From positions 1,102,033-1,166,032 of the forward strand of contig NZ_JAVBIK010000001.1 of assembly GCF_032193805.1 (NCBI RefSeq): a stretch of 64,000 nt of DNA, written 5' to 3'. Origin of the DNA: Rhodoferax potami (lineage in GTDB: Bacteria > Pseudomonadota > Gammaproteobacteria > Burkholderiales > Burkholderiaceae_C). Below the pieces are notes generated by a model. It was given only the letters and a program-made list of their open reading frames with translations. It made no database searches and was not told where the DNA came from. The position numbers were made by a program, and so were the translations under genes. This document shows positions 9,869-64,000 of this stretch, piece by piece (positions within the stretch are counted from its first letter, which is position 1; every line of letters begins with the position of its first letter).

Positions 9869-10771
9869 TCATGTCATGGCCCATTTGGGTTTGCGCTTTT
9901 GTAGGAATGCGGTCATGCCTTCTAGTCCCTCTGCGCTTTGCGCTGAGTGGGCGAAGACGGCTGCGGCTTGCTCCACCAGATCAGCAGCCGGGTTAAAGCG
10001 CGCTTGCTGCATCAAGGCTTTGGTGGCGGCCAAGGCGCCGGGGGCGCAGGCCAATATGTCGGAGAGCACGCGGTTCAGTTTCTGTGGCAAGTCGTCAGCA
10101 CTGCACAGCTCATGGACCAAGCCCAAGCGATGCGCCGCAGCGGCGTCCAAGCGCCCGCCAGTCACGGCCAAGCGTTTGGCTTGCGAATAGCCCAAGCGCT
10201 CGACCAGAAACGGCGCGATCTGTGCAGGCACCACGCCCAGCGACGTCTCGGGCAGGCGGAACGAAGCACTGTCGTCCGCCAGCGCCACGTCGGCCACACA
10301 GGCTAGGCCGAAGCCGCCGCCCATGACCGTGCCTTCCAGCACTGCCACCACGGCCAGCGGGGTCTGGGCGTAGGCCACGCACAGGCGGCCGAAGGCGGCG
10401 TTCACCTCCGCAATCGGGTCGGGCGCGCCAGCCTCGCGCTGCATGGAGCGCATGCGTGCGCCAGCCATGTCTTTGAGGTCCGCACCCGCGCAGAAGTGCC
10501 CGCCTGCGCCGCGCAACACCACCACGCGCACCGCGCCTTCGCTACCTGCAGTGGCCTCTGCCGCCTGCAAAGCTTGCTGCAGCTCGGCCACCATTTGCAG
10601 GGACATGGCATTGCGCGCCTCGGGGCGGTTCAAGGTGATGTGCAACACCGCGCCCACCTGCTCTGCACGGATATGCCCGTAGCCTGGCGCAGGCGTATTT
10701 GCTCCTTTTTCAGGAGCTGCTTTCGCACTATCCATGGGCGCTAGCGGGCTATTTGACTCAGAAACTTGCAT
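9869..10771 (-). CDS. atuE: Enoyl-CoA hydratase (isohexenylglutaconyl-CoA/methylglutaconyl-CoA hydratase type)
   Basis: A 300-residue crotonase-fold protein with LNRPEARNAMSL (about residues 46-57), the oxyanion segment AGGHFCAGADLKDMAGAR (about 89-106) and VMGGGFGLACVADVALADD. It would hydrate the glutaconyl-type product of the carboxylase. The gene begins three bases after the dehydrogenase stop. The first 30 or so residues are an unusual Ala/Pro/Ser-rich extension encoded by a copy of the dispersed repeat (10697-10754), so the ancestral start may have been downstream. The order of the operon supports atuE; leucine-pathway liuC is the alternative. Confidence 0.82.
   Translation of the reverse strand: MQVSESNSPLAPMDSAKAAPEKGANTPAPGYGHIRAEQVGAVLHITLNRPEARNAMSLQMVAELQQALQAAEATAGSEGAVRVVVLRGAGGHFCAGADLKDMAGARMRSMQREAGAPDPIAEVNAAFGRLCVAYAQTPLAVVAVLEGTVMGGGFGLACVADVALADDSASFRLPETSLGVVPAQIAPFLVERLGYSQAKRLAVTGGRLDAAAAHRLGLVHELCSADDLPQKLNRVLSDILACAPGALAATKALMQQARFNPAADLVEQAAAVFAHSAQSAEGLEGMTAFLQKRKPKWAMT
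10697..10754 (-). repeat. Dispersed repeat family copy inside the hydratase N-terminus
   Basis: On the minus strand it reads CTAGCGCCCATGGATAGTGC followed by GAAAGCAGCTCCTG and AAAAAGGAGC. It aligns without gaps to the copy at 36190-36243 over TAGCGCCC, TGCG and AGCAGCT. It encodes the SPLAPMDSAKAAPEK portion of the hydratase N-terminus. Confidence 0.7.
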
Positions 10772-14562: not shown

Positions 14563-14620
14563 AAATCAGGCGCCAGCCCACGTAGGAAATTCGCCTATTG
14601 CTCCTAAAACAGGAGCAAAT
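14563..14620 (+). repeat. Dispersed repeat family copy, intergenic
   Basis: The tail TTGCTCCTAAAACAGGAGCA and upstream CAGGCGCCAGCCCACG resemble the hydratase copy at 10697-10754 (CTCCTGAAAAAGGAGC there). It lies between merR and the convergent gene ending at 14631. Its GCTCCT-N4-AGGAGC hairpin could also act as a weak terminator. Confidence 0.55.
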
Positions 14621-19305: not shown

Positions 19306-19336
19306 TTTAGTAACCTATTTAGTGTCTAATTTGCGC

Positions 19337-20233
19337 ATGTTGTCTCTATTTAGGCATGTCGCTCTGATCGGCAAGTACCAAACCACCGGCACCAGCGCTG
19401 CGGGGGCCTCGTCCCGCAAATCGCTGGACGAGATTGCCCATTATTTGATGGACCAGGGCTGCGAGGTGGTGATCGAAGCCGACACCGCCGCCAACACGGG
19501 CTTAAGCAACTACACCACCATGGATGTGGACGGCATTGGCACCCACTGCGACCTGGCCCTGGTGGTGGGTGGCGACGGCACCATGCTGGGCATAGGCCGC
19601 CAGCTGGCGCGCTACCAGGTGCCGCTGATCGGCATCAACTCCGGGCGGCTGGGGTTTATCACCGATATCCGCTTCGAACAGTACAAAACCACACTGGCCC
19701 CCATGCTGGCCGGCCACTACGAGGTGGACGACCGCGCCCTGATGCGCGCCCGCGTCATGCGCGACGGCCACTGTGTGTTTGAGGCCGAGGCCATGAACGA
19801 CGTGGTGGTGAACCGCGGCGCCACCTCGGGCATGGTGGAGCTGCGGGTGGAGGTGGACGGGCACTTTGTGGCCAACCAGCGGGCGGATGGGCTGATCATC
19901 GCCTCGCCCACGGGCTCTACCGCCTACGCCATGTCGGCCGGCGGGCCGCTGCTGCACCCCTCGATCGCCGCTTGGGTGATGGTGCCGATTGCGCCGCATA
20001 CATTGTCAAATAGGCCGATAGCGCTCGCCGACAGTGCGCGGATAGCTATAGAAATAGTAGCAGGGCGCGATGCCAGCGCCAACTTTGACATGCAGAGCCT
20101 GGCCAGCCTGATGCACGGCGACCGCATTGAGGTGACCCGCTCGCAGCACAAGGTGCGCTTTTTGCACCCCAAGGGCTGGACTTACTTTGACACCCTGCGC
20201 CAGAAAATGCATTGGAATGAAGGGGTGGCGTAA
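19337..20233 (+). CDS. nadK: NAD kinase
   Basis: A 298-residue enzyme that phosphorylates NAD to NADP. Visible are the [17 protein letters not shown] motif (about 77-87), [22 protein letters not shown] (about 151-160) and [19 protein letters not shown]. The ATG at 19337 is chosen because the protein then begins [15 protein letters not shown], the expected first beta strand. Residues about 225-243 ([20 protein letters not shown]) are conserved in NadK, yet the DNA that encodes them (20007-20061) closely matches the dispersed repeat family, an oddity discussed separately. Confidence 0.95.
20007..20061 (+). repeat. Dispersed repeat family copy inside nadK
   Basis: AGGCCGATAGCGCTCGCCGA and TGCGCGGATAGCTAT align without gaps to AGGCCTATAGCGCCCGCAAT and TGCGCGAGCAGCTAT of the copy at 36190-36243, about three of four bases identical over roughly 50. 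It is in frame with a conserved NadK segment. Confidence 0.6.
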
Positions 20234-22810: not shown

Positions 22811-23875
22811 CTAGCCTTCCAACAGCTTTCGCACCGGGGCAGGCAGGCCAGCCGCAGCCCATTCGGCAGGCGTGAACCAAGCGCCTTCGCCCAAGTCACT
22901 TGCTATTAAATCCATAGCGACATGCGCACACTCCACCTGAGCTGGATGCATAAATAGGTCTTTATGCGTGAGCACATGGGTCACTGCAGGCATAAACCGC
23001 AAGTCGCCCGCAAACACGGGCGGTAACGCGGCGCGCAACGCGTCTTCACTCTCAAACAGCGGAAAGCACTGCAAGCCCGCCCACACCCCAGGTGTGGGGC
23101 GCTTGCTCAGCCACACCGCGCCATCAGCACGCCGTAACCACAAGAGCCACAGGCTCTGGCTGCTACGCTTGAGCTTGCGGGTGCGCACCGGGTAGCGCTC
23201 GGCGTCACCCGCCTTGGCAGCGGCGCATTGGCTATTCACCGGGCAGAGCAAACAGCTGGGCCGCTTGGGGCTGCAAAGCGAGGCGCCCAAATCCATCATG
23301 CCCTGTGTATAGCGTGGCATCACACGCGGGCCCTCAGTGGCCACCTCGGCCGCGCTGGGCAGCAAGGCTGTGGCCTGGTCCCACAGAGCGCGCTCATTCT
23401 TGGTGGAGGCCAGATCGGCGTCAAACCCCAGCACACGGGTGAGCACCCGCTTCACGTTGGCATCCATGATGGCCACCCGCTCATCAAAACACAGCGAGGC
23501 AATTGCCGCAGCGGTGGAGCGGCCTATGCCGGGCAAGGTGACCAGCGTCGCCGCATCGCGCGGGAAGGCACCACCGTGCAGCTCCATGACCAGCTGGGCA
23601 CAGCGGTGCAAGTTGCGGGCGCGGCTGTAGTAGCCCAGGCCGCTCCAGAGGCCCATGACCTCGTCACTGCTGGCGGCGGCCAGTTCTGCCACCGTGGGGC
23701 AGCGGGCCAAAAAGCGGTCGAAATAGCCGATGACGGTGGCCACCTGCGTTTGCTGCAGCATGATTTCTGACAGCCACACCCGGTAGGGGTCTTGGGTGTT
23801 TTGCCAAGGCAGGCTGTTGCGGCCATGCTGCGCCTGCCAGCGCACCACGGCGGTGGCAAAACTCGGTGTCGCCAT
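22811..23875 (-). CDS. mutY: Adenine DNA glycosylase MutY
   Basis: A 354-residue glycosylase that removes adenine mispaired with 8-oxoguanine. The sequence shows the catalytic Glu in SEIMLQQTQVATVIGYF (about 36-52), the helix-hairpin-helix LVTLPGIGRSTAAAIA (about 111-126), the catalytic Asp in IMDANVKRVL, and the iron-sulphur ligands C-x6-C-x2-C-x5-C in CSPKRPSCLLCPVNSQC (about 196-212). A C-terminal NUDT1-like domain begins near residue 235. It is the last gene of the mutM-GTPase-mutY series. Part of a repeat-like sequence (22899-22935) lies in the C-terminal coding region. Confidence 0.96.
   Translation of the reverse strand: MATPSFATAVVRWQAQHGRNSLPWQNTQDPYRVWLSEIMLQQTQVATVIGYFDRFLARCPTVAELAAASSDEVMGLWSGLGYYSRARNLHRCAQLVMELHGGAFPRDAATLVTLPGIGRSTAAAIASLCFDERVAIMDANVKRVLTRVLGFDADLASTKNERALWDQATALLPSAAEVATEGPRVMPRYTQGMMDLGASLCSPKRPSCLLCPVNSQCAAAKAGDAERYPVRTRKLKRSSQSLWLLWLRRADGAVWLSKRPTPGVWAGLQCFPLFESEDALRAALPPVFAGDLRFMPAVTHVLTHKDLFMHPAQVECAHVAMDLIASDLGEGAWFTPAEWAAAGLPAPVRKLLEG
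22899..22935 (-). repeat. Possible dispersed repeat family copy inside mutY
   Basis: TTGCTATTAAATCCATAGCG followed by ACATGCGCAC resembles the TTGCTAT-N6-ATAGC-N4-TGCGC half of other copies. It encodes part of the HVAMDLIASDLG segment of MutY. Similarity covers only about 35 bases. Confidence 0.4.
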
Positions 23876-26737: not shown

Positions 26738-28474
26738 ATGCACCGCACCCAACGCCTCATCGCTATCGCTTCCATCGTGGCCGGACTCATTCCATTCGGG
26801 TCCGCGCAGGCTGTGGCGCCAGCGCCCGTCACAAACTCGGACCTCAACGCCGGGCTGATGTACCAGATCCTGGTGGCAGAAATGAGTGCCTTCAATGGCG
26901 ATGAGACCAACGCGTTCTCCTTGACCCTAGATGCAGCCCGGCGCGCCAATTCACCGCGACTGTACGAGCGGGCGGTGGAGCTGGCCTTGCGCGCCCGAAG
27001 CGCGGACTTTGCGCTGGAGGCCGCGCGCGCTTGGCAGCGGGGGTTCCCCAGCTCAAAAGATGCCAATCGCTACATCTTGCAAATATTGATAGGTACGAAC
27101 CGCCTGTCTGAACTGACCGAGCCACTCAAACGCGAACTCCAAGGCCTCTCGGGCAAGGACCGGGTAGGCACTATTAATGTGTTGCCACGCTATTTCCAGC
27201 GGGTAACCGATAAAACACTGGCCGCAGCGGTGCTCGAACAAGCGCTGGCAGCGGACCTGCCCACCACGCTCTACGGACCCGCGGCATGGAGTGCTGTGGG
27301 CGTGATGCGAATCGGCGCCGGCAACCTGCCCGGCGCGCTGGAGGCAGCCCAACGCGGCGCCGCGCTGGACGCCAACGCAGAAGAGCCCGCAGTGCTCGCC
27401 CTGAATTTGATGGATGCCAAAGCGCCGGCGGCCGAGGCGATCGTGCGCAAATACCTGGCAGGCAATGCGCTGCCCGAAATCCGCATGGGCTACGGGCGGG
27501 CCTTGATAGGTGCGCAGCGGTTTGCCGAGGCACTCACCCAAATGCAGCTGATCAACTCGCAAAAGCCTGATTTTGCAGATGCTTGGCTGGTACGTGGGTC
27601 TCTGGAAATCCAGGACAAAGGCCCGGTCGCTGCAGAGAAATCACTTAAGCAGTACCTGAGCCTGCTCCCCGCCGAGCAAGACCCCAATGACGAGACCGAA
27701 ACCGGACGGGGTGCGGTACAAGCCTATTTATTGCTCGCCCAGATTGCAGAACTGAACGGCAAGCCCGACGAAGCCAATGCACTCCTGCAACGGATCAAAA
27801 GCCCCCAAGACGCTCTGCGGGTAACTGTGCGCCGCGCCACGTTGATGGCCCGCCAAGGCAAGCTGGACGAAGCCCGTGCCGCGATCCGCAACGCCCCGGA
27901 ACGACAAGCCGATGACGCCCGCACCAAGCTGGCCACCGAAATCCAGCTGCTCCGCGACTACAAGCAAATGAGCGAGGCCTACACCCTGCTCACAACCGCG
28001 GTGCAGACCTACCCGGATGACAACACCTTCGCCTACGACTTGGCCATGGTCGCAGAAAAACTCGGTCGACCCGAGGAGATGGAAACCCTGCTGCGCAAGC
28101 TGATTGCCAAAGCGCCGGACTACCACCACGCGTACAACGCATTGGGCTATTCTTTGGCGGACCGTGGCATACGCCTGCCAGAGGCGCGGCAACTGATTCA
28201 AAAGGCGCTGGAGTTCGCACCCGCCGACCCCTTTATCGTCGACAGCCTAGCGTGGGTGGAGTTCCGCAGCGGCAATCTCCCCGAAGCACAGCGCCTCTTG
28301 CAGCAGGCCTATGCCAGCCGGCAGGACGCAGAAATAGCGGCCCATTTGGGCGAAGTGCTGTGGGTCTCAGGGCAGCGCGAAGCGGCGACCAAAATCTGGC
28401 AGCAGGGCTTGGAACTGCAGAAAGACAACGAAACCCTGCGCGAGACTATCCAGAGGCTGAACCCGTCCTTATGA
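26738..28474 (+). CDS. Exported tetratricopeptide-repeat protein
   Basis: A 578-residue protein with a Sec signal peptide ([20 protein letters not shown], cleavage after AQA near residue 25). Tandem TPR-like helical pairs run through most of its length, for example [22 protein letters not shown] (about residues 460-480) and [25 protein letters not shown]. It should lie in the periplasm or at the outer membrane as a scaffold. Its stop overlaps the lolB start (ATGA), so a link to lipoprotein localisation is plausible. The same TPR-lolB-ispE order is common in betaproteobacteria. Confidence 0.85.
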
Positions 28475-28974
28475 GCTTGGGAATCCGGACCCGAACGCTA
28501 CTCACGCTCTGGATTGCTATTTTTTCGATAGCGGGTTGCGCACATAAAACGGGCGCAAACAGCACTTTTCCTGCTGAATCGCAGTGGAGCGGCAGGCTGG
28601 CCCTCAAAGTGCAGAGCACGCCACCCCAGGCCTTCAGCGCCGACTTTGAATTGGGTGGCTCGGCCGAAGCAGGCCAACTGGCTTTCTACACCCCCCTCGG
28701 CACCACTGCGGCAAAGCTGCAATGGGCGCCCGGCACCGCAACCCTCGCGGCAGAAGGGCAAATCCGCCAATTTGACTCGGTAGAGGCCCTGGTGCAGCAA
28801 GCCACAGGCGCCGAACTCCCGGTGCAAGCGCTGTTTGATTGGCTCCGGGGTACGGCTACGCCCGTGCCGGGCTGGTCCGTGGACCTGAGTGCCCTGGAGC
28901 AAGGTCGGTTGATGGCCCAGCGTGATGACCCTTCGCTGCCGCGTATTGAGTTGCGAATCATTCTGCAGCCCTGA
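28471..28974 (+). CDS. lolB: Outer-membrane lipoprotein LolB
   Basis: A 167-residue lipoprotein with an N-terminal signal ending in lipobox SIAGC (about residues 19-23). The body has WSGRLALKVQ, the FSADFELGGSAEAGQLAFYTPLGTT strand region and LPVQALFDWLRGTATP, typical of LolB. It accepts lipoproteins from LolA and inserts them into the outer membrane. The ATG overlaps the TPR gene stop by four bases. The hydrophobic core of the signal and the lipobox are encoded by a copy of the dispersed repeat (28513-28555). Confidence 0.9.
   Translation: MSLGIRTRTLLTLWIAIFSIAGCAHKTGANSTFPAESQWSGRLALKVQSTPPQAFSADFELGGSAEAGQLAFYTPLGTTAAKLQWAPGTATLAAEGQIRQFDSVEALVQQATGAELPVQALFDWLRGTATPVPGWSVDLSALEQGRLMAQRDDPSLPRIELRIILQP
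28513..28555 (-). repeat. Dispersed repeat family copy encoding the LolB signal peptide
   Basis: TTGCTATTTTTTCGATAGCG, GTTGCGCA and AACGGGCGC follow the TTGCTAT / ATAGC / TGCGCA / GGGCGC order of the 63842-63898 copy. It encodes the IAIFSIAGCAHKTGA part of LolB, including the lipobox Cys. Confidence 0.55.
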
Positions 28975-34900: not shown

Positions 34901-36253
34901 TTACCGCACCGGATCCGGCGCACCCAGCACCACGGTGGACATCCGGTCGGGCTGCAGCACACGGGCCATGGCTGCGCGCACATCTGCTGCTGTGAGCTTG
35001 TCGATCTGCTGGGTCCAGGTGTCGAGGTAATCGAGCGGCAGGCGGTTCCAGGCGATGTTGGCCACGTTGTCCAGCAACTTCTTGTTGCTGTCGATCCGCA
35101 GCGCAAAGCCGCCCATCAAATTGTCTTTGGCGGCTTGCAGCTCCTTGTCAGACGGGCCCTGCGCAACAAACCGGCTCAGCACTTCCCGCACCAAGGCCAG
35201 CGCCTGCTCTGCTTGGTCGGGCCGCGTCTGAAGGCCGACGGTAAAGGCACCAGCGTGCAGACCCGGCGCAAAGAAGCTGTACACGCTGTAGGTCAGGCCT
35301 CTTTTTTCGCGCACCTCTTCGGTCAAGCGTGCGGTGAATCCGCCGCCCCCCAGAATGTGGTTGCCCACCGTCAGCGCAAAGAAATCAGGATCGTTGCGCT
35401 TGAAGCCTGGTTGCCCCACCAGCACATGGGCCTGGGCAGAGGCAAACGCAATCCGCTGGTCACTGGCGGCCGCCAAGGGCTGCACCTCTGGCACCGGTGG
35501 TGGTTTCACACAGCCGGCTTGGGGCAAGCGGGCCAGCAACTTGGTCACCAGTGCGTCGGCCTGTGTCCGGTTGAGTGCACCCACGATGCTGACCTGGACC
35601 GCACACGCCCGCAGAACACGGGCATGCAAGTCGCGCATGTGCTGCACGTGGGTGCGGAGCAAGCTCGCCTCGGTCGGTTCATAACCATAGGGGTGGTTGC
35701 CATACACCGCGCGGTTCAAAGCGCGGGCTGCCAGTGTGGCGGGCCGGGTGTTGGCCTCCTTGAGGCTGGCGATCAGCTTGGGTCGGTCGCGCAACCACGG
35801 CGCCTCCGGAAACGCCGGCTCGCCAATCTGACGCGCAGCCAGCGCAACCGCTTGGTCCAGGATATCGGGATAGGTCAAGGACCGCAGCGCGAAGCTCATG
35901 CGGTCGGCGCTCGCGCTGCCACCGAAAGAAGCTCCCAAATCCGCCCACGCCTCGCTGAGTTGGTTTTCATCCAGCGCCGGGCCGGCATGGCTGGCGCGCA
36001 CACCGTTGGAGGTGCTGGTGGCCATCAGATTCGCCAGACCAGGCTGGTCGGCCGGGTCGCGCCGGCTGCCGGCATCCAGATCAATTTGCACATCCACCAT
36101 CGGGATGGCCGGGCTCTCGACCAGATACACCCGGGCGCCTTGGGGCTGCGTCCAGTGCTGAATGGGAATGCCCGCCCAAGCAAAGTTTATATAAAAAAGG
36201 CCTATAGCGCCCGCAATCATTGCGCGAGCAGCTATCAATTTAGGAGTGTTCAT
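34901..36253 (-). CDS. M16-family peptidase homologue, non-catalytic partner
   Basis: A 450-residue periplasmic protein with a signal peptide of about 26 residues. It has the M16 fold: GSRRDPADQPGLANLMATST where active members carry HxxEH, and KRGLTYSVYSFF and NKKLLDNVANIAWNRLP further on. The zinc motif is absent, so it is probably the inactive half of a heterodimer with the gene upstream (36269-37747), 15 bases away, as in other bacterial M16 pairs. The whole signal peptide (MNTPKLIAARAMIAGAIGLF) is encoded by a copy of the dispersed repeat. Confidence 0.9.
   Translation of the reverse strand: MNTPKLIAARAMIAGAIGLFYINFAWAGIPIQHWTQPQGARVYLVESPAIPMVDVQIDLDAGSRRDPADQPGLANLMATSTSNGVRASHAGPALDENQLSEAWADLGASFGGSASADRMSFALRSLTYPDILDQAVALAARQIGEPAFPEAPWLRDRPKLIASLKEANTRPATLAARALNRAVYGNHPYGYEPTEASLLRTHVQHMRDLHARVLRACAVQVSIVGALNRTQADALVTKLLARLPQAGCVKPPPVPEVQPLAAASDQRIAFASAQAHVLVGQPGFKRNDPDFFALTVGNHILGGGGFTARLTEEVREKRGLTYSVYSFFAPGLHAGAFTVGLQTRPDQAEQALALVREVLSRFVAQGPSDKELQAAKDNLMGGFALRIDSNKKLLDNVANIAWNRLPLDYLDTWTQQIDKLTAADVRAAMARVLQPDRMSTVVLGAPDPVR
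36190..36243 (+). repeat. Dispersed repeat family copy encoding an M16 signal peptide
   Basis: Plus strand AGGCCTATAGCGCCCGCAAT, TGCGCGAGCAGCTAT and CAATTTAGGAG. It is the clearest copy in the window and is used here as the reference. Read on the minus strand it encodes LIAARAMIAGAIGLFYI, the core of the signal peptide of the gene ending at 34901. Confidence 0.75.
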
Positions 36254-39115: not shown

Positions 39116-40315
39116 ATGACTCTTCGCATCGCACGTCGCCAACTGATCGCCGGCACTGCTGCCGCACTCGCGGCTCCCGCATTCGCCCAATCCACCGCCG
39201 CCTGGTCTGCCATTGAGGCCAAAGCCAAAGGGCAAACGGTGTACTTCAATGCCTGGGGCGGGTCGGAGACCATCAACGCCTATATCCAGTGGGCCGCGGG
39301 CGAGGCGCAAAAGCGCTTTGGTGTGACGGTGCAGCACGTCAAAATTGCCGACGCGCCGGACATGATCAAGCGGGTGCGCAACGAAAAAGCCGCTGGCAAA
39401 ACCAACGGCAGCGTGGACATGGTGTGGATCAACGGTGAAAACTTTTTGACCATGAAGCGCGAGGGCCTGCTCTTCGGGCCTTTTGCTGAGAGCTTGCCCT
39501 CGTATGCCAAAGTGGACGTGCAAGGCAAACCCACCACCCGCCTCGACTTTGCCGAGCCCACCGATGGCCTGGAAGCCCCCTGGGGCATGGCTCAGCTGAC
39601 CTTCATGGTCGACAGCAAGCGCACCCCCAAGCCGCCACAAAACCTGGCCGAGCTGCAAGCTTTTGCCAAAGCCAACCCCGGCCGCGTAACCTACCCGCGC
39701 CCGCCCAACTTCCACGGCACCACCTTCTTGAAGCAAGTGCTGATGGACGTGAACACCAATCGCGACACACTCTACAAACCAGTCACCACCGACGCGTTTA
39801 CCAAAGCCACCGCTCCCCTGTGGGCAGCGCTGGACCAGATGCACCCGCACCTGTGGCGCAGCGGCAAGCAGTTCCCCAACAACGCTGAGGCGATCCGCCA
39901 GATGCTGGCCGATGGCGAAGTAGCAATTGCACTCACCTTCAACCCCAACGACGCTGCAAATGAAATCGCGGCCAAGCGCCTTCCTGCGAGCATCACCAGC
40001 TATCAATTCAGTAGCGGCACGATCGGCAATACGCACTTCGTTGCGATTCCGGTCAACGCGACTGCCAAAGAAGGCGCGCAGGTATTCGCCAACTTCTTGC
40101 TCAGCGCAGAGGCGCAAGCCCGCAAGGCTGATATCGCTGTCTGGGGCGACCCGACGGTGCTCGCGCTCGACAAGCTCAGCGCCAGCGAGCGCGCTGCATT
40201 CGCGGCTAAGCCTTTGCCCGGCCAAGTAGAAAAGCCGGCACCTGCTATTCCAGAGCCCCACGGCAGCTGGGTCGATGCGCTGGAAAAGGAATGGACCAAG
40301 CGCTACGGGGCATGA
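39116..40315 (+). CDS. ynjB: ABC transporter substrate-binding protein, YnjB-like
   Basis: A 399-residue periplasmic binding protein with a twin-arginine-like signal (MTLRIARRQLIAGTAAALAA, cleavage after AFA). The mature part has VYFNAWGGSETINAYIQWAAGE, DMVWINGENFLTMKREGLLFGPF and PWGMAQLTFMVDSKR, matching the YnjB family as I recall it. The ligand is unknown. Its likely membrane partner genes ynjC and ynjD lie about 20 kb away at 60794-63107. A repeat-like stretch CAGCTATCAATTCAGTAGC (about 39998-40016) lies inside the gene. Confidence 0.85.
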   Translation: MTLRIARRQLIAGTAAALAAPAFAQSTAAWSAIEAKAKGQTVYFNAWGGSETINAYIQWAAGEAQKRFGVTVQHVKIADAPDMIKRVRNEKAAGKTNGSVDMVWINGENFLTMKREGLLFGPFAESLPSYAKVDVQGKPTTRLDFAEPTDGLEAPWGMAQLTFMVDSKRTPKPPQNLAELQAFAKANPGRVTYPRPPNFHGTTFLKQVLMDVNTNRDTLYKPVTTDAFTKATAPLWAALDQMHPHLWRSGKQFPNNAEAIRQMLADGEVAIALTFNPNDAANEIAAKRLPASITSYQFSSGTIGNTHFVAIPVNATAKEGAQVFANFLLSAEAQARKADIAVWGDPTVLALDKLSASERAAFAAKPLPGQVEKPAPAIPEPHGSWVDALEKEWTKRYGA

Positions 40316-45488: not shown

Positions 45489-46160
45489 ATGACTGCCCTG
45501 CTCGACTGCATCGAACTCGAATCCGCCCCCAACCCCACGGCCGCCGTCATCTGGATGCACGGGCTGGGCGCTACCAGCGATGACTTTGCAGGCCTGGTGC
45601 CCGAGCTGGACTTGGAAGGCTGCCAGCCTATCCGCTTTGTGTTTCCGCAGGCGCCCAGCATCCCGATCACCATCAACGGTGGCTATGTGATGCCCGGCTG
45701 GTACGACCTGTATGGCATGGACCTGGTGAGCAAGCAGGATGCGGCGGGCATCCAGCGCTCTGAGGCGGCGATTGCGGCCCTGGTGGATCGCGAAGTGGCC
45801 CGTGGCATCGCGGCCGATCACATCGTGTTGGCGGGTTTTAGCCAAGGCTGCGCCATGGCACTGCACACCGCCTTGCGCCTGCCACACAAAATTGCGGGCG
45901 TCATGGCCCTGTCCGGCTACCTGCCGCTGGCAGACCGCTTTGCCACCGAGCGCAACGCCGCCAACGCATCTACCCCCATCTTCATGGCCCACGGCACCCA
46001 AGACCCGGTGGTGATCTTGAAGCGCGGCGAAGACTCGCGCGATGCACTGGCCGCCCTCGGCCACAAGGTGCAGTGGCACACCTACCCCATGCCGCACAGC
46101 GTGCACCCGCGTGAGATTGCTGACATTGCCGCCTTTTTGAAGCAGGTGCTGCCCGCGTGA
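45489..46160 (+). CDS. Carboxylesterase/phospholipase (alpha/beta hydrolase)
   Basis: A 223-residue cytoplasmic hydrolase. It has AVIWMHGLGATSDDFAGLVPEL (about 18-39), the nucleophile elbow LAGFSQGCAMAL (G-x-S-x-G near 117-121), the acid in MAHGTQDPVV and the catalytic His in YPMPHSVHP. Length and motifs fit bacterial carboxylesterase II / acyl-protein thioesterase-like enzymes acting on short to medium acyl esters. The TGA stop overlaps the ATG of the Hsp70 gene, so the two are coupled. Confidence 0.92.
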   Translation: MTALLDCIELESAPNPTAAVIWMHGLGATSDDFAGLVPELDLEGCQPIRFVFPQAPSIPITINGGYVMPGWYDLYGMDLVSKQDAAGIQRSEAAIAALVDREVARGIAADHIVLAGFSQGCAMALHTALRLPHKIAGVMALSGYLPLADRFATERNAANASTPIFMAHGTQDPVVILKRGEDSRDALAALGHKVQWHTYPMPHSVHPREIADIAAFLKQVLPA

Positions 46161-47422
46161 TGGAGACTGTTCGCCCCCTGGTGCTGGGCATTGACTTCGG
46201 CACCTCGAATTCCGCCTGTGCACTGATCGACGCGCAAGGCGCCTTGCAGGTCATCCCGCTGGACGGCGCTAAGGCTGAAATGCCCACCGCCCTGTTTTTT
46301 GCCAGCGAAACCCACAGCGTGCTCTTTGGAGCCGAGGCCATGCAGGCCTACCTGAATGGCACTGAGGGTCGCTTGCTGCGCTCGCTCAAAAGCCTGATGG
46401 GCAGCCGCCTGATGGACGAGTACACCGCCGTGGGCGATAAGAGCATCCGCTTCTTTGACATCGTGGTGCTGTTCTTCAAAGAGCTCAAGCGCCGGTGCGA
46501 AGCCCATGTGGGCCAGCCCCTGACCCACGCCATGCTGGGCCGCCCGGTGCACTTTGTAGACGACGATGCCGAGCGCGACCAGTTGGCACAAGAGACGCTG
46601 GGCCGCGCCGCGACAGAGGCCGGCTTCACCCACATTGCCTACCAGCTCGAACCCATTGCCGCCGCGCTGGACTACGAGCAGCGCGTAGCCAAAGAGACTA
46701 CGGCACTGGTAGTGGACATTGGCGGCGGCACCTCCGACTTCACGGTGATCCGCCTCAACCCCGAGCGCAGCGCGCAGGGCGACCGCACCGCAGACATTTT
46801 GGCCACCACAGGCGTGCACATCGGCGGCACCGACTTTGACCGCTTGCTGGACCTGACCACCGTCATGCCCCACTTGGGCTACAAGCACGTAGGCACCGGC
46901 GGGCGCATTGTGCCCAGCAGCGTATTTTTTGACCTGAGCACTTGGCACCTGATTCACCAGGCCTACACCCGCAAGTCCATGCACTTTGCGAAGGAGCTGT
47001 GGACCGACTACACCGACCAGGCCCTGCACCGCCGCCTGATGGATGCGCTGGAAGAGCAGCACGGCCACCGCATGCTGGCTAGCGTGGAAGCCGCCAAGAT
47101 TGCCTGCTCCATCAGCGGTGATGGCGCGGTGGTCAACCTCGACTTTCTGGACCGCAGCCTGGCCCCCACGGTGGACGCGGCGAACATGGAATCCGCCCTG
47201 CACGCCTCGCTGGCGCAAGTGGTGCAGTGCGCCCAGGACTGCGTGGCCGCTGCCGGCCTGCAGGCCGTGGACGCGGTGTACCTGACCGGTGGTTCTTCCG
47301 CACTGCGCACCCTGATCGCAGCGCTTCGCGCTGCCATGCCCGAAGCAACGCTGGTGGAAGGCAACCGCTTTGGTGGCGTAGCCGCCGGGCTGGCGTGGGC
47401 GGGTGCGGTTCACCCGTATTGA
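46160..47422 (+). CDS. yegD: Short Hsp70-family protein (YegD-like)
   Basis: A 420-residue actin/Hsp70 ATPase domain. It shows phosphate-1 LGIDFGTSNSACALID (about 9-24), phosphate-2 VVDIGGGTSDFTVIRL (about 185-200) and the adenosine motif VYLTGGSSALRTLIAAL (about 374-390). The C-terminal substrate-binding domain of DnaK is absent, as in YegD. It may be a chaperone-like regulator; clients are unknown. The ATG at 46160 overlaps the esterase stop; GTG at 46157 is possible. Confidence 0.88.
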   Translation: METVRPLVLGIDFGTSNSACALIDAQGALQVIPLDGAKAEMPTALFFASETHSVLFGAEAMQAYLNGTEGRLLRSLKSLMGSRLMDEYTAVGDKSIRFFDIVVLFFKELKRRCEAHVGQPLTHAMLGRPVHFVDDDAERDQLAQETLGRAATEAGFTHIAYQLEPIAAALDYEQRVAKETTALVVDIGGGTSDFTVIRLNPERSAQGDRTADILATTGVHIGGTDFDRLLDLTTVMPHLGYKHVGTGGRIVPSSVFFDLSTWHLIHQAYTRKSMHFAKELWTDYTDQALHRRLMDALEEQHGHRMLASVEAAKIACSISGDGAVVNLDFLDRSLAPTVDAANMESALHASLAQVVQCAQDCVAAAGLQAVDAVYLTGGSSALRTLIAALRAAMPEATLVEGNRFGGVAAGLAWAGAVHPY

Positions 47423-47903
47423 GGCACAGCCACCTCAGTGCGAATTTGCTATATTTTTAATAGCTACTCGCGGCTTATTTATCTGGGCTAGAGGTACTTT
47501 TCACTCTAAATTGAGTGGTAAGCCTAGCGCTCTTATCAGCCCCGTCTTGTGGGCGGCGTCCGCCTCGGCCCGACGAAAGACGACGATCAGGTCAACGTGG
47601 TCAGTGGATGGGTACCAAGTAGAGGGCTTTCAGTGGGTGGCGTATGGCCGGGTTAGACGATGTGCAGCCTTTTACGAGCATCCGCTGTTTCGCAACCTTT
47701 TGGCAACAGCGCCATTGGTGCACATCGGCACATTCAGGGCGCCTCTTATTCCTGTTGCAGATTTACCAATAACTGTCGAGGTCCCTTGCACATCGGCTGC
47801 GCCACGGCCGACGTCCGAAATAGAAGCGATCTGGGTTTCGCCCTAGCGAGCTTTGAAAAATATACTCTTGAACCATAGTAATAACTCCAAGGGAGGGCCC
47901 TCT
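47423..47903. other. Gene-free stretch before mcrB
   Basis: About 480 bases with no convincing gene. A dispersed repeat copy occupies 47446-47500. The open frame to 47846 encodes a low-quality peptide that starts inside yegD and spans the repeat, so it is not credited. A TATACT -10-like hexamer (47861-47866) lies 38 bases ahead of the mcrB ATG with no good -35. This is probably a junction where the McrBC pair was inserted. Confidence 0.5.
47446..47500 (-). repeat. Dispersed repeat family copy, intergenic
   Basis: Plus strand TTGCTATATTTTTAATAGCT, ACTCGCGGCTTATTTATC and GGGCTAGAGG follow the order of the other copies (TTGCTAT-N-ATAGCT-N-CGCG-N-GCTA) in reverse orientation to the 36190 copy. 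It lies 24 bases after the yegD stop. Confidence 0.6.
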
Positions 47904-49724
47904 ATGTCCTTATTCCACGACAAGATTGATGGTGTGCCGCAGTTTGTGAGCTACTTCCCAGCTGTACACCGAGCAATGCAGCACTTTGGGGGGCAAGCAG
48001 TGCCCAAGCAGGTATATGCCTTTATTGCAGAGCACGAAGGGCTTACTGCGGAGGACATAGCCCACAAGAACAAAAACGGTGGTCCCACTTTTGAGAACCG
48101 TGCAGCATGGGCGCGGTTTTACATGACCAAAGCGGGCTGGATGTATGCCCCGAAGCATGGTATCTGGGCGCTATCAGAGGACGGCGTTAAAGCTAAAGAG
48201 CTATCGCTTGAACATGCTGTTGCCATGTTTAAAAGCGTAGCTACAAAGCTCAAAGGTCATGAGGAAGACGTCAGCGTACCTGAGGACGTTGAGCCTGAAA
48301 CCGCGCAGTACTGGTTTGTCGGCGCAGCATGGGATAACAACGATCAGATGTCCCGTTTCCTAAGCGAAGGGATTTGGCAAAACGGCCATGAGCACAAGTT
48401 TTCCGACCTCGTACGCGGCATGAAGCCAGGTGACCGCATCGCGATCAAATCCAGTTTTGTGCGCAAGCACAACCTCCCATTTGATAACAAAGGTGTGCGA
48501 ATCAGTGGCATGAAAATTAAGGCTACGGGCGTTATCACGCGCAATCACGGCGATGGCAGGACTGTGGATGTGGCCTGGCAAGTACCCGTGGAACAACCCC
48601 GAGAGTGGTATTTTTACACCTACCGGACGACGGTAAGCCGCGCCCGCGTAGAGGATGAAGGGCTAGCCTGTAAATTGGTGGCGTTTGTTTTTGACGGAGC
48701 AGCGCAAGACTACGACTTTTTCATGTCGTACCCCTATTGGCGCGATCGATTTGTAAGTCCCGATGCGGATGCACTGTCACAAGAAAACTCTGAAAGCAGC
48801 GAAGACTTGTTAGATGAAGAAGAGCAAACCTCCGTGGCTGCTGTGTATGACATAGGTGACATCGTGACGGAAGGGTGCTTCATGCAAGAAGCCGCACTGC
48901 ACAGCATTTTGGGGCTATGGCGCGCCAAGAAAAACCTGATTTTGCAAGGCCCGCCAGGTACAGGCAAAACCTGGCTGGCAAAGCGGCTGGCCAAAGCTTT
49001 GATTGGCCTTAAGACGGTGCCTGATGAGCAGTTACGCGTCGTGCAATTTCACCCTGCGCTCTCGTATGAAGACTTTGTCCGTGGCTACCGCCCCGGCGGG
49101 GATGGACGATTGACTCTCACAGATGGTGTGTTCCTGCAGGTGGTACAGGCAGCCATTGCCCAGCCCGACATGGAGCATGTTTTAGTGATTGAAGAAATCA
49201 ACCGTGGGAACCCCGCGCAGGTGCTCGGTGAGATGTTGACTCTGCTAGAGAGCAGCAAGCGTTCCCGCGCCGATGCAATTGAACTGGCGTATTCCAAGGC
49301 ACGTGGCGAGAAGGTGTATGTGCCCGAGAACCTGTATGTAATTGGGACTATGAATGTGGCTGACCGCTCGCTAGCACTGGTTGATTTGGCTCTACGTCGG
49401 CGTTTTGCGTTTGTGAACTTGGTGCCGAATTTAAATGAAGCTTGGCAGCAGTGGTGTGGGAGCAAGGGGTTGAATGCAACAGCAATTGACCACATTCAGT
49501 CCCGCATGCAAAGTTTGAATGAAGAAATCGCAGCTGACCGCGCGTTAGGGCCACAGTTCCAAATCGGCCATTCTTATGTAACCCCGCATGAACACGTGCA
49601 CGATTCGCAAAAATGGTTTTCAGACATAGTGAGATCAGAAATTAGCTCCTTACTGCACGAATACTGGTTTGATACGCCACAGCGTGCGGATGAAGCCATC
49701 GCTCAATTACTCAAGCTTGGATAG
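47904..49724 (+). CDS. mcrB: McrB-like AAA+ GTPase of a modified-DNA restriction system
   Basis: A 606-residue protein in three parts. Residues 1-95 look like an Mrr-N-type winged helix (VPKQVYAFIAEHEG, WARFYMTKAGWMYAPKHGIWALSEDG). Residues about 130-275 resemble an EVE/PUA-like modified-base reader (YWFVGAAWDNNDQMSRFL, VRGMKPGDRIAIKSSF). Residues 325-560 are the AAA+ motor: Walker A LQGPPGTGKTWLAKRLAKAL, Walker B HVLVIEEINRGNPAQVLGEML, and the McrB signature GTMNVADRSLALVDLALRRRF. It should use GTP to drive cleavage of methylated DNA with McrC. GGGAGG lies seven bases before the ATG at 47904. GC is lower than in neighbours. Confidence 0.88.
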   Translation: MSLFHDKIDGVPQFVSYFPAVHRAMQHFGGQAVPKQVYAFIAEHEGLTAEDIAHKNKNGGPTFENRAAWARFYMTKAGWMYAPKHGIWALSEDGVKAKELSLEHAVAMFKSVATKLKGHEEDVSVPEDVEPETAQYWFVGAAWDNNDQMSRFLSEGIWQNGHEHKFSDLVRGMKPGDRIAIKSSFVRKHNLPFDNKGVRISGMKIKATGVITRNHGDGRTVDVAWQVPVEQPREWYFYTYRTTVSRARVEDEGLACKLVAFVFDGAAQDYDFFMSYPYWRDRFVSPDADALSQENSESSEDLLDEEEQTSVAAVYDIGDIVTEGCFMQEAALHSILGLWRAKKNLILQGPPGTGKTWLAKRLAKALIGLKTVPDEQLRVVQFHPALSYEDFVRGYRPGGDGRLTLTDGVFLQVVQAAIAQPDMEHVLVIEEINRGNPAQVLGEMLTLLESSKRSRADAIELAYSKARGEKVYVPENLYVIGTMNVADRSLALVDLALRRRFAFVNLVPNLNEAWQQWCGSKGLNATAIDHIQSRMQSLNEEIAADRALGPQFQIGHSYVTPHEHVHDSQKWFSDIVRSEISSLLHEYWFDTPQRADEAIAQLLKLG

Positions 49725-49736
49725 AGGCACGTGGGA

Positions 49737-50810
49737 ATGGCCACACCCATACCTCTGCGCAATATTTGGCTGCTTTTTCTGTATGCGGCCGATTTGGTGC
49801 AATTTAAAGACAGCACTCAGGTAGAAGCTGAATCGGCCAGAAATCTGCCAGAACTGCTAGCGCGACTCCTTACTCAGGTAGTGCGGCAGCGATTGCGCAG
49901 CAACCTAAGCAGAGGTTATCAACCGAGGCATGCCGTGCTGTCGCGTGTGCGTGGTCGCATAGATGTATTGGCAACTGCATCCGGACAGTTGCTGGAACAA
50001 GGGCGTGTAGCTTGCAAATTTGAAGAACATACGCTGGACACCCCGCGTAACCAGTTGGTCCGTGCTGCACTAGAAAATCTAGCGATCAGGCTTGAACTGC
50101 CTGAGTTGGTACATGAATGCAAAGCGCTATCTCACCTAATGGCAAGCATGGGGGTTGGTAGCCAAAGGCCTTCTCGCTCCCAGTTAGCAACAGACCAAGT
50201 CAACCGCAATGAGACTACCGACTTGTTGATGTTGAGCCTAGCCAAGATGGTGTTTGAGGCTTTTATCCCCACTGAGGAAAATGGCCAAACAAATGCGGTT
50301 TTGGCGGATGCTGATGTGCATTTGGTACGCCGTTTGTTTGAAAAAGCAGTCGCCAATGCATTACGTATCCAGCTCCAGCCCGTTGGTTGGCAGGTCTTGC
50401 GCGGCCGCAAGCTTAGGTGGCCTGTGCAAGCGATATCAGAAGGACTTGATGCTCACTTGCCGGGTATGCAGACGGATATAGAACTACTGCACCATGCCCG
50501 GAAGCACAAGTTGGTGATTGACACCAAGTTCACCAACATCTTTACCTCAACGCAGTTCAAAGAACAGGTACTGCGCAGTGGGTACCTTTATCAGCTCTAC
50601 GCGTACTTGCGCACACAGGAAGATGCAACCTTAATGCGGGGTTGGCGCAGCGAAGGGATTTTGTTACATCCCCAGTGCGGCGAAACCCTTAATGCTTATA
50701 TGAGCGTGCAAGGCCATTGCATGAGATTTATGACGATTGACTTGATGAGTTCCGCTGAGGTGTTCGAGCAGCAACTTTTGAGTTTGGGTGAATCGATCGA
50801 GCATACGTAA
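49737..50810 (+). CDS. mcrC: McrC-like nuclease subunit
   Basis: A 357-residue protein that starts MATPIPLRNIWLLFLYAADL, typical of McrC-family proteins. The N-terminal half has SRVRGRIDV and TLDTPRNQLVRAALENL. The C-terminal PD-(D/E)xK nuclease core has LPGMQTDIELLHHARKHKLVIDTKF (about 247-271), where D-x(n)-D-x-K supplies the metal site. It cuts DNA when activated by the McrB hexamer. The ATG at 49737 has GAGG nine bases upstream; GTG 49731 is an alternative. It follows mcrB by 12 bases and shares its lower GC. Confidence 0.88.
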   Translation: MATPIPLRNIWLLFLYAADLVQFKDSTQVEAESARNLPELLARLLTQVVRQRLRSNLSRGYQPRHAVLSRVRGRIDVLATASGQLLEQGRVACKFEEHTLDTPRNQLVRAALENLAIRLELPELVHECKALSHLMASMGVGSQRPSRSQLATDQVNRNETTDLLMLSLAKMVFEAFIPTEENGQTNAVLADADVHLVRRLFEKAVANALRIQLQPVGWQVLRGRKLRWPVQAISEGLDAHLPGMQTDIELLHHARKHKLVIDTKFTNIFTSTQFKEQVLRSGYLYQLYAYLRTQEDATLMRGWRSEGILLHPQCGETLNAYMSVQGHCMRFMTIDLMSSAEVFEQQLLSLGESIEHT

Positions 50811-50903: not shown

Positions 50904-50934
50904 ACTGCTACGATTTTCATAGCTACCCGCACAG
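50904..50934 (-). repeat. Partial dispersed repeat copy after mcrC
   Basis: ACTGCTACGATTTTCATAGC followed by TACCCGCACAG resembles the TTGCTAT-N-ATAGCTAC-N-CGCA half of the family. It lies between mcrC and the convergent LysR gene. Confidence 0.4.
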
Positions 50935-50980
50935 CCTACACCTGAGCTTTCTGCCGATTTCATTCAAAAACCGCCCCACC

Positions 50981-51904
50981 TCACGCATCCCCCAGTGCCG
51001 CCTGCAGCATCTCAATAAACACCCGCGTCTTGGGTGGCATGAGCTTGCGACCGGGGAAGACGGCTGAGACAGGCATTTGCGGAAAACACCACTCGGGCAA
51101 CACCCGCACCAGCGCGTGGCGGCGCAGATCGGCTTGGGTGAATACATCGGGCACTGCGCCTATGCCGGTGCCGGCCAGCACCAGGCGCAACAGCAGGTCC
51201 GGCGCGTTGGCCGCAAAGCGGCCGGGGGGTAGCGCAGTCCATGCCTGCTCGCCATTCACCAAGCGCCAGGGCAGGGGCTCCCCGTTGCCGCCCAGCAAGC
51301 GCACCGCCTGGTGCTGCAGCAGGTCTTGCGGTGTCTGCGGTGTGCCGTGTTCGGCCAGGTATTGGGGCGAGGCATACAACCCGGTGGACATGAGGCTCAG
51401 GCGCCGCGCAGCCAGCAGGCTGTCGTCCGGCAAGGCGCCGATGCGCACCGCCACGTCAAAACCTTCACCCAGCAGGTCTACCCGGCGGGCCGATAGGTCC
51501 AGCTCCAGCGAGATGCCGGGGTACATGGCCACAAACGCACCCAGCATGTCGGCCAAGAGCAAGTGGGCAATGTCTGCCGGCATGGACACCCGCAGCCGCC
51601 CGGTGGGCGTGGCCTGGCGGCGCTCGCTCAGGGCGGCTACAGCCTCTACCTCCAGCACCACCTGCTTAGCGTGCTCGAGCAGTTGCTGGCCGAACTCGGT
51701 CAGTGTTTGGCGGCGGGTGGTGCGCAGCAGCAGGCGCTCGCCCAAGCGCTGCTCGAGGGCTGCGAGCCGGCGCGACACGCTGGACTTGGGCAGCCCCACC
51801 TTGTCGGCCGCACGGCTGAAACTGCCCAGCTCCGCCACGCGGGCAAAGATGAGCAGGTCGTTAGGGTCGATGGCGGCAGTCTGGAGTGCGCTTGATTGTT
51901 CCAT
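50981..51904 (-). CDS. LysR-family transcriptional regulator
   Basis: A 307-residue LysR regulator. The N-terminal helix-turn-helix is LLIFARVAELGSFSRAADKVGLPKSSVSRRLAALEQRLG (begins near residue 17), and the effector domain has GRLRVSMPADIAHLLLADML and FDVAVRIGALPDDSLLAARRL. The subclass resembles CrgA/DmlR-type regulators. ATG 51904 is preferred over ATG 51925. It is divergent from doxX with a gap of about 100 bases, so it probably controls the doxX-pirin pair. The inducer is unknown. Confidence 0.9.
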   Translation of the reverse strand: MEQSSALQTAAIDPNDLLIFARVAELGSFSRAADKVGLPKSSVSRRLAALEQRLGERLLLRTTRRQTLTEFGQQLLEHAKQVVLEVEAVAALSERRQATPTGRLRVSMPADIAHLLLADMLGAFVAMYPGISLELDLSARRVDLLGEGFDVAVRIGALPDDSLLAARRLSLMSTGLYASPQYLAEHGTPQTPQDLLQHQAVRLLGGNGEPLPWRLVNGEQAWTALPPGRFAANAPDLLLRLVLAGTGIGAVPDVFTQADLRRHALVRVLPEWCFPQMPVSAVFPGRKLMPPKTRVFIEMLQAALGDA

Positions 51905-52004
51905 GGTGACAACAATCATATCCATTTCAAGGGATTTTCAGGCTGATTGATGAGGAATACAGTTCACCCATCGCAAACAACTTCCCCCTTGAAAGGAAAT
52001 CACC

Positions 52005-63720: not shown

Positions 63721-64000
63721 ATGCTGGACCGTTTTGCCACGCCCTTGCTGCGCACGCCCCTGCAGGCCATGGCACGCCTGCTGGTGCGCGCCGGCGTGGG
63801 TGCGAATGCCGTCACGCTGGCAGGATTTGGCGTCGGCCTTGTTGCTGCAATTTTGATAGCTAATGGCGCATATGCAGCGGGCGCTATCGCCCTTTTAACC
63901 TCCAGACTGCTGGACGGACTGGATGGTGCGGTGGCCCGCGAAACCCAGCCGACGGATGCGGGCGGTTTTCTCGATATCTCGCTGGACTTTTTGTTTTACG
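63721..64000 (+). CDS. ynjF: CDP-alcohol phosphatidyltransferase, YnjF-like (partial, cut by window end)
   Basis: The visible 93 codons start MLDRFATPLLRTPLQAMARL. They contain a hydrophobic helix (GLVAAILIANGAYAAGAIALL) and the catalytic motif DGLDGAVARETQPTDAGGFLDISLD, that is D-x2-D-G-x2-AR then G-x3-D-x3-D. It transfers a phosphoalcohol to CDP-diacylglycerol-type substrates. The neighbours match the ynjC-ynjD-x-ynjF order. The DNA of the first helix is a dispersed repeat copy (63842-63898). The rest lies outside the window. Confidence 0.85.
   Translation, partial: MLDRFATPLLRTPLQAMARLLVRAGVGANAVTLAGFGVGLVAAILIANGAYAAGAIALLTSRLLDGLDGAVARETQPTDAGGFLDISLDFLFY
63842..63898 (-). repeat. Dispersed repeat family copy inside ynjF
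   Basis: Plus strand TTGCTGCAATTTTGATAGCT, GGCGCATATGCAGCGGGCGC and TATCGCCCTTTTAA. Its reverse complement aligns to the 36190 copy over AGG-C-ATAGCGCCCGC, TGCGC and AGCTATCAA. It encodes the LIANGAYAAGAIALL membrane helix. Confidence 0.65.

Follow-up and report, generated by a model that had tools for sequence, protein, structure and literature searches.

The locus considered here raises the question of why the signal-peptide codons of a predicted M16-type protein should coincide with a copy of a repeat dispersed over the whole genome. It lies in a 64,000-nucleotide stretch of Rhodoferax potami DNA, analysed at its full length and hereafter called the window (C1:1102033-1166032 of a 4.0-Mb, three-contig genome), where the M16-type gene occupies positions 34901-36253, minus strand, and the repeat, about 55 bp long, positions 36194..36246, minus strand (E 8e-11; sense frame KLIAARAMIAGAIGLF). 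An earlier note on the window had read the repeat as an element recruited into coding sequence to supply signal peptides, lipoboxes and membrane helices. The present analysis points to the DNA itself: in our judgement, which includes part of the domesticated-element alternative discussed below, the repeat is very probably a DNA-level signal, kept in place today. As to mechanism, a recognition signal read in trans, a watermark of the uptake-signal type, would be the best fit among known ones, with a probability of roughly 40%.

To define the family, the window was analysed together with 39 evenly spaced stretches (777 kb) of the same contig, for a total of 841 kb, of which 10 kb are N and 831 kb are not. 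A profile seeded with 58 pattern matches converged to the 55-bp consensus TGCTATTAATTTAATAGCTGCTCGCGCACATTCTACGTGCGCTAGAGGCCTATTT (E values are from nhmmer) and produced 118 matches, 62 on the plus and 56 on the minus strand, corresponding to 117 places, one of them counted on both strands; by extrapolation from the 841 kb, the 4.0-Mb genome would contain about 560 copies. The reversed 841-kb sequence gave no profile match up to E 10, and three dinucleotide shuffles gave none at E<=0.1; in one of the shuffles, looser thresholds admitted 1 match (E<=1) or 2 (E<=10). A search of the whole genome for GCTATN7ATAGCN3TNGCGC, allowing one mismatch, found it 194 times, versus once for the pattern read backwards; a bias of these matches towards the plus strand was considered and rejected, whole strand counts being 104 and 90. 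The dispersed repeat family is therefore confirmed, its copies exceeding chance by 118 matches to none at E<=0.1 in the controls. The motif is made of blocks in a fixed order, an AT tract, AGCTGCTnGCGC, an AT-rich stretch, GnGCTAGnGGC and ATTT, over a fixed length of about 55 bp; it holds some 50 bits of information in the 70 best copies, and full-length scores run continuously from 5 to 70 bits.

Copies have no family tree and share no descent beyond the motif itself. Among 70 full copies, coupling between columns fades within about 6 bases (z 17.8, 7.3, 3.4, 3.3), and no mutual information beyond permutation is found at column distances of at least 7 (z 1.0, 1.2, -0.3). The most similar pair is 80.4% identical, versus 79.9% expected from independent columns, and an indel is present in the alignment of just one copy of the 70.

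The motif is also conserved in place. For 32 of the 118 matches, those with both flanks found in the available stretches of Comamonadaceae bacterium OS-4, the orthologous site is in all cases occupied (16.5 to 46.4 bits) and in none empty. In 30 own/OS-4 pairs of equal length, columns of high information (at least 1.2 bits) differ at 3.0% of positions in genes (7/234) and 4.2% elsewhere (13/306), columns of low information (below 0.5 bits) at 14.9% (29/195) and 16.9% (43/255), and flanks at 8.7% (160/1842) and 7.9% (191/2424), respectively. Informative columns thus change at a rate four to five times below that of uninformative ones. Places are moreover shared between genera, at the M16 5' end, in NadK, in ComEC and near the Y1_Tnp gene, as detailed below.

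Copies within conserved proteins reveal how the motif differs between genomes. The proteins compared residue by residue are well-known ones chosen among the 44 genic copies, MutY and UreF being left out of this comparison. In nadK (19295-20233, plus strand), a copy lies inside the gene, in antisense frame, at 20008..20062, minus strand (E 3e-10). No gap is found at the copy against solved (PDB) NAD kinases, and the register is kept there in NadK from all 30 further genomes of the family, the site matching the profile in 12 of the 20 taken as motif-rich (E 8e-12 to 2e-2) and in none of the 10 taken as motif-poor. Motif-bearing genes use AT-rich codons (TCA AAT AGG CCG ATA ... ATA GCT ATC GAA ATA GTA GCA), of a type rare in GC-rich genomes; genes lacking the motif encode nearly the same residues by GC-rich codons, with few residue changes (e.g. 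V for A).

Similar results were obtained for other proteins. Alanine racemase (Alr), YciO and ApaH are gap-free at the copy against solved structures, as is a HisC-like aminotransferase, whose copy is weak (E 2e-3). AidB is gap-free against Variovorax and G004, the sole comparators found besides OS-4, and GST against G004, G018, G028 and Variovorax, with a one-residue gap against Curvibacter lanceolatus. RibD, also without a gap, shows weak similarity and was not counted; PGI (L013), which differs by 6 residues close to the copy, and DnaE2 (L028), where one copy falls in a region that is shorter in PolIII alpha, are ambiguous. Neither a step of unit length nor an empty site, the marks of insertion, was thus found: seven proteins are gap-free, with the one-residue exception of GST, and 32 of 32 OS-4 sites are occupied. 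As copies in conserved proteins align essentially gap-free with homologues, the motif arose there by substitution, and transposition was rejected on these grounds together with the lack of column linkage.

Loops of Tex and TlyA are a different case. Tex contains two copies, both in linkers, the first of which is 23 residues longer than in Variovorax, and the TlyA copy sits in a loop much shorter in solved homologues; in both proteins the loops vary in length, with no unit-length step visible by eye. Among 28 fetched TlyA orthologues, the loop matches the profile in 12 of 18 motif-rich and in 0 of 10 motif-poor genomes. Four of the latter (G018, G004, G028 and G036) have a loop peptide of the same length at the copy, the other six a shorter or different one. 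In these four the loop DNA scores -28, -14, -42 and -38, respectively, the background maximum being -15.8 in 300 random windows, versus 39 to 63 in five motif-rich genomes. Loop length and DNA scores together indicate gain and loss of the motif by substitution between congeneric genomes; loops of the TlyA type may perhaps have been gained once.

The motif occurs in two lineage dialects. The first, ...AGCTGCTnGCGCA..., is shared by our genome, OS-4, Rhodoferax bucti and G160; the second, ...AGCTGCTnGCGCTTGnnnnnACAAGCGC..., with inverted arms GCGCTTG...CAAGCGC and spacing otherwise as in the first, by G159, G117 and G056. Unique copies per 100 kb amount to 14 in G160, 27 in G159, 18 in G117 and 15 in G056, figures to be taken as upper estimates, some stretches having been chosen around listed matches. 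Within the genus, 14 of 31 genomes have at least 150 matches, one has 25, seven have 1-4 and nine none. At E<=0.001, 59 of 150 genomes of the family match, in agreement with the mention of similar sequences in Comamonadaceae in the earlier note: 37 with at least 33 matches, two with 29-30 and 20 with 1-16, the remaining 91 having none; a model of the second dialect matches 61 of 150. Out of 250 genomes drawn from the whole order, 4 match at E<=1e-4, all of them of this family. The distribution is therefore bimodal and family-restricted in the draws made.

A search of 22 named genomes gives the same picture. At least 150 matches are present in OS-4, R. bucti, a Curvibacter metagenome-assembled genome (MAG), Polaromonas eurypsychrophila, Acidovorax sp. 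sic0104 and three further MAGs, while Comamonas aquatica has 146, C. kerstersii 143, a Ramlibacter MAG 62 and C. avium 48. Much lower figures characterize four Paracidovorax species (3-21), Variovorax (7), a Hydrogenophaga MAG (3) and Curvibacter lanceolatus (1), and no match was found in Caenimonas sedimenti, Ramlibacter albus and a Limnohabitans MAG.

Genomic localization was evaluated on gene calls from a purpose-written gene finder, predicted starts being their least reliable part. The 117 places fall within genes in 44 cases (38%), between genes in 41 (35%), over stop codons in 20, over start codons in 6 and in a possible 5' extension in 6, where random placement expects 82.5%, 7%, 5%, 3.4% and 2.2%, respectively; intergenic and gene-end copies are hence in excess. 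Genic copies are found in both orientations, and no strand or replichore bias is observed, the counts being 62 and 56 by strand, 36 and 38 relative to the GC-skew strand. Copies are spread fairly evenly (2.8 per stretch, variance 2.3, in 39 stretches) and increase with the GC content of the stretch (Spearman 0.43, p 0.005, n=40). Four stretches contain none: a ribosomal-protein/SecY cluster, an island with IS66-type and Mu/Tn7-type genes, a sugar-nucleotide cluster and a half-masked stretch.

What has to be explained is the copy number, the substitution-only differences at conserved genes, the column-wise constraint, the dialects and the patchy distribution over the family. A motif which is long, rigid in spacing, constrained column by column, free in orientation, located in coding and non-coding DNA alike and organized in dialects must be read by something, and the lineage dialects suggest that the reader acts in trans. 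Selection on the DNA, or its biased transmission, would maintain the motif, which would appear, persist and decay by base substitution in place, within or outside genes, wherever the encoded peptide tolerates it. If a candidate competence receptor preferred motif-bearing DNA, perhaps as a way for the bacterium to tell its own DNA during uptake, motif alleles would spread by transformation and recombination. Both the existence of a reader protein and the equation of reading with DNA uptake are here inferred. In its full form, which we put forward tentatively as a possibility, the proposal is that Comamonadaceae have a third family of uptake signals, about 55 bp long, made of spaced blocks with genus-level dialects and written over coding sequence by biased transformation; genomes that are close relatives would switch from hundreds of copies to none, or back, as the reader is lost or gained, and peptides such as the TlyA loop would remain as fossils of the motif.

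The proposal rests on the likeness, at the sequence level, to the DNA uptake sequences (DUS) of Neisseriaceae and the uptake signal sequences (USS) of Pasteurellaceae, which are likewise scattered over the genome by the hundreds, within genes as well as between them and in either orientation, feature lineage dialects and are conserved in place under constraint. Equal use of the two strands and the surplus of copies between genes and at gene ends are further uptake-like features, and the small number of viral matches given below may be another. As far as the consulted parts of the respective papers go, neisserial DUS have been described as dialects (PMC3630211) and as conserved in place at permissive sites of the core genome, partly arising by recombination (PMC2397512), and some uptake sequences fall at annotated gene starts, where annotation suffers from them (PMC2346458). 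The Comamonadaceae motif differs in belonging to another bacterial family and in being about 55 bp long with several spaced blocks, compared to a core of about 10 bp: no such short core stands out, conserved columns being distributed along the whole 55-bp motif. Natural transformation has a precedent in Verminephrobacter eiseniae, which we take to be a member of this family. This species is reported, in the part of the source consulted, to be naturally transformable, with hints of sequence-limited uptake (PMC4212676).

If this interpretation is correct, a third and much longer type would be added to the uptake-type watermarks established for two bacterial families, and the occurrence of dialects, together with close relatives with or without the motif, would allow a direct test of how such signals originate, spread, override codon choice and die. 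It would also provide a handle on species-specific transformation in freshwater Comamonadaceae. Even with another function of the reader, a 55-bp DNA motif present at hundreds of sites and reshaping conserved enzymes, NadK among them, is an uncommon finding that lends itself readily to testing.

Several observations weigh against an uptake signal. Length and information content, some 50 bits over about 55 bp, are far from the roughly 10 bp of DUS and USS. ComEC, the sole competence gene compared across carriers and non-carriers, is present in 45 of 46 genomes, motif-rich and motif-poor alike, and was rejected as a discriminator of the two groups; the only genome with no ComEC match, G026, in 90 contigs, is motif-rich. 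Strong copies, one or two per genome, with best E 9.5e-14 to 6e-9, are present in seven genomes otherwise almost free of the motif, and none was found in the stretch with the ribosomal-protein cluster, which is surely core. The motif does not match in 8 of 20 motif-rich genomes at the NadK site nor in 6 of 18 at the TlyA site, and the loops with the Tex and TlyA copies exceed those of distant homologues in length, as would be the case for old insertions. Half-built sites outside full copies show no excess over the reversed control, except for the left half, 5 versus 1 at the loosest threshold; their scarcity fits poorly with stepwise building, though full-length scores run continuously. Finally, the constraint test is partly biased, own copies having been picked for high score. 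This bias is not the whole account of the result, since choosing by score hides changes on no more than one branch of each pair, and the observed ratio, 0.20-0.25, falls short of one half.

The evidence for a DNA-level, column-constrained motif with dialects would equally suit the binding site of a chromosome-organising or other DNA-binding protein, beneficial to the host and maintained by ordinary selection at each site, dialects reflecting co-evolution with the protein. The even spread of copies, and the AT tracts, which by eye are about two helical turns apart in the consensus, agree with this alternative. We nevertheless regard it as doubtful: to maintain about 560 sites, some of them altering residues of conserved enzymes (NadK, AidB), is much to demand of selection acting site by site, no strand or replichore pattern is seen, and genomes of the same genus do without the motif. 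An ancient small mobile element, similar to Rickettsia palindromic elements (RPE), to repetitive extragenic palindromic (REP) sequences or to miniature inverted-repeat transposable elements, having spread in an early member of the family and being today in decay or domesticated, seems to us unlikely. This origin keeps some probability because the Tex and TlyA copies lie in variable, expanded loops, and is in line with the intergenic and stop-codon excess and the lack of a clear excess of half-sites. RPE, in the portion of the literature consulted, are likewise short repeats found inside open reading frames (ORFs), in readable frames (PMC3733652); they are inserted, whereas the conserved proteins compared here show no insertion. 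Gap-free copies in NadK, Alr, YciO and AidB strain the hypothesis, as do the absence of empty sites (0 of 32), the uneven conservation of columns and the lack of linkage between distant ones. REP sequences, with their associated transposases (RAYT) of the Y1 type, offer a further parallel: the motif, like them, is dispersed and often near gene ends, and its carriers usually have one Y1_Tnp gene; it differs by showing no compensatory base pairing and no significant association with such a gene. A Y1_Tnp protein is encoded by 20 of 20 motif-rich versus 21 of 26 motif-poor genomes (Fisher p 0.06, a weak trend in favour of the mobile origin). Of 19 loci, 7 have a copy at most 700 bp away from the domain, versus 26% expected (p 0.2), so that flanking is not above chance and a link with RAYT was rejected. 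The second Y1_Tnp gene of G015 (L286, G015:C65:20600-28273, at about 5.9-6.8 kb), flanked by copies at -129 and +428 bp of the domain match in a REP-RAYT-like arrangement, is the sole case of its kind among the 19 loci.

A structured RNA or terminator-type element, acting in transcripts, is suggested by the inverted arms, GCTAT...ATAGC in the first dialect and GCGCTTG...CAAGCGC in the second, and by the 20 of 117 places over stop codons. The arms do not covary: double changes are 13 versus 22.6 in shuffles and, in the second dialect, where both arms were tested, 8 versus 14.4. Compensatory changes being below the shuffled expectation in both dialects, a stem-loop was rejected; genes contain both orientations, an Rfam scan of the window reached gathering scores for three tRNAs only, with no match at motif copies, and we consider this explanation very improbable. 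Recruitment of the repeat to supply signal peptides, lipoboxes and membrane helices is the least probable of the explanations considered, and is refuted as a general one, although it may hold locally. The overlaps with coding sequence are indeed as the earlier note had described them: the core of the M16 signal peptide is a motif copy; the lipobox IAGC of a LolB-like gene (ORF 28252-28974, plus strand; TIGR00548 lolB match below cut-off) is inside a copy at 28515..28569, plus strand (E 6e-9); the N-terminal extension of an enoyl-CoA hydratase-type gene (9869-10771, minus strand) is encoded antisense to a copy at 10700..10754, plus strand (E 7e-9), family matches starting at residues 30-44 and no in-frame start being present between residues 13 and 39; and a CDP-alcohol phosphatidyltransferase-like gene, cut by the end of the window (NCBIfam NF040950 match below cut-off), has a copy in a hydrophobic stretch at 63843..63896, plus strand (E 5e-8). 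To these a DsbD-like gene (L016) may be added. Most copies, however, are elsewhere, those of NadK and other proteins in conserved enzyme folds, and the encoded peptides are only slightly, not generally, hydrophobic (mean Kyte-Doolittle value 0.45-0.52, versus -0.02; 2 of 44 above 1.6, versus 2.3% of all windows). An excess near predicted starts (-45 to +120 nt) does exist, with 33 of 118 matches where random placement gives 14.7% (p 2e-4), but no more than 16 of these 33 share the strand of the gene, and in 23 the centre of the copy is 25-44 nt upstream of the start as predicted. At the M16 5' end, 26 of 80 orthologues show a profile match at the same place, while orthologues with no match also have, by eye, a hydrophobic N-terminal stretch there, in some of them of the same length. 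Several motif-poor genera keep a partial motif at this locus, so that the M16 signal peptide may descend from a motif-bearing one, and the motif-bearing state may be the older at M16.

Whatever its reader, whether of the uptake type that we favour or another, the motif has in part been in print. According to the available portions of PMC5217627 ("Unsupervised statistical discovery of spaced motifs in prokaryotic genomes", 2017), GCTTAT(N)5AAGCG occurs in Acidovorax ebreus in 114 copies, 5 of them in genes, and ATAGCT(N)22CAAAAG in Polaromonas naphthalenivorans in 125, 18 of them in genes, both being listed as potential novel motifs, and Rhodoferax ferrireducens has the largest number of spaced motif pairs, 140. 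The A. ebreus pair, as given there, fits the right-hand palindrome of some second-dialect copies letter for letter (e.g. L215:6291-6356); that of P. naphthalenivorans shares ATAGCT and, judged on its sequence, probably belongs to this motif. In those portions the paper deals with fragments, for their intergenic location, and holds neither the whole motif nor dialects, coding use or a function; the consulted part of PMC12616744 yielded nothing on the motif, and our literature searches, one of them by sequence, turned up no account of the complete motif, of its dialects or of its use in coding sequence. The earlier statement that no description was known thus fails for the fragments and stands, within the literature searched, for the motif as a whole.

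In the window, nine of the ten copies originally listed were recovered by the profile at their places, with E 8e-11 to 1e-5. The M16 copy is kept in OS-4 and R. bucti, whose proteins are 98% and 83% identical, respectively, in the best segment to that of the window, a YfmF family match (NCBIfam) below cut-off. A further genic copy, at 22901..22951, plus strand (E 7e-8), falls in the C-terminal NUDIX region (Pfam NUDIX_4, 245-353) of mutY (22811-23875, minus strand; TIGR01084 mutY above cut-off). Three copies lie between predicted genes: 47447..47500, plus strand (E 2e-6), between 46160-47422 and 47904-49724; 50906..50960, plus strand (E 4e-6), between 49737-50810 and 50981-51925; and 14563..14617, minus strand (E 1e-5), between 14060-14536 and 14631-14966, the last scoring 26.0 bits, less than its OS-4 orthologue (36.6 bits). 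The tenth, at 39998..40016, minus strand, is a left half-site, not a full copy (best E 0.38), kept in OS-4 and R. bucti. The gene at 47904-49724 encodes a McrB-like AAA protein (NCBIfam PRK11331, below cut-off) and lies in a part of the window that has no long match to OS-4.

Some minor observations concern copies outside the window. Two are found within ComEC (L006:15513-18023); by eye, one of them has a counterpart at nearly the same position in the ComEC gene of three other genera, in stretches chosen to cover this gene. In two tandem PhzF-type genes a copy is at about the same place in each (L016:6671-6725 and 7567-7609), probably duplicated with the gene. In the motif-free island (L018), IS66-type genes are present as inverted copies, together with a transposase gene of the Mu/Tn7 type. 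The lone strong copies of motif-poor genomes (L229-L235, L241) are mostly between genes, and may reflect recent transfer or a retained functional site. No common neighbouring gene emerged in the five of these loci scanned with Pfam; the place seems to be common to two congeneric species, L235 and L241 having the same gene coordinates, with L235 alone among the scanned loci. Among 2.9 million viral contigs, 18 stretches match a pattern occurring 13 times in the 841 kb of own DNA, versus 2 in the reversed control, a figure whose weight depends on how many of those viruses infect Comamonadaceae. Finally, a copy lies 5.2-5.4 kb from the Y1_Tnp gene in 14 of the 18 loci whose stretch reaches that far (e.g. 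L274:13215-13260). In our genome this copy is at the end of one predicted gene and before another (12 of the loci were read), the downstream one being presumably gltD.

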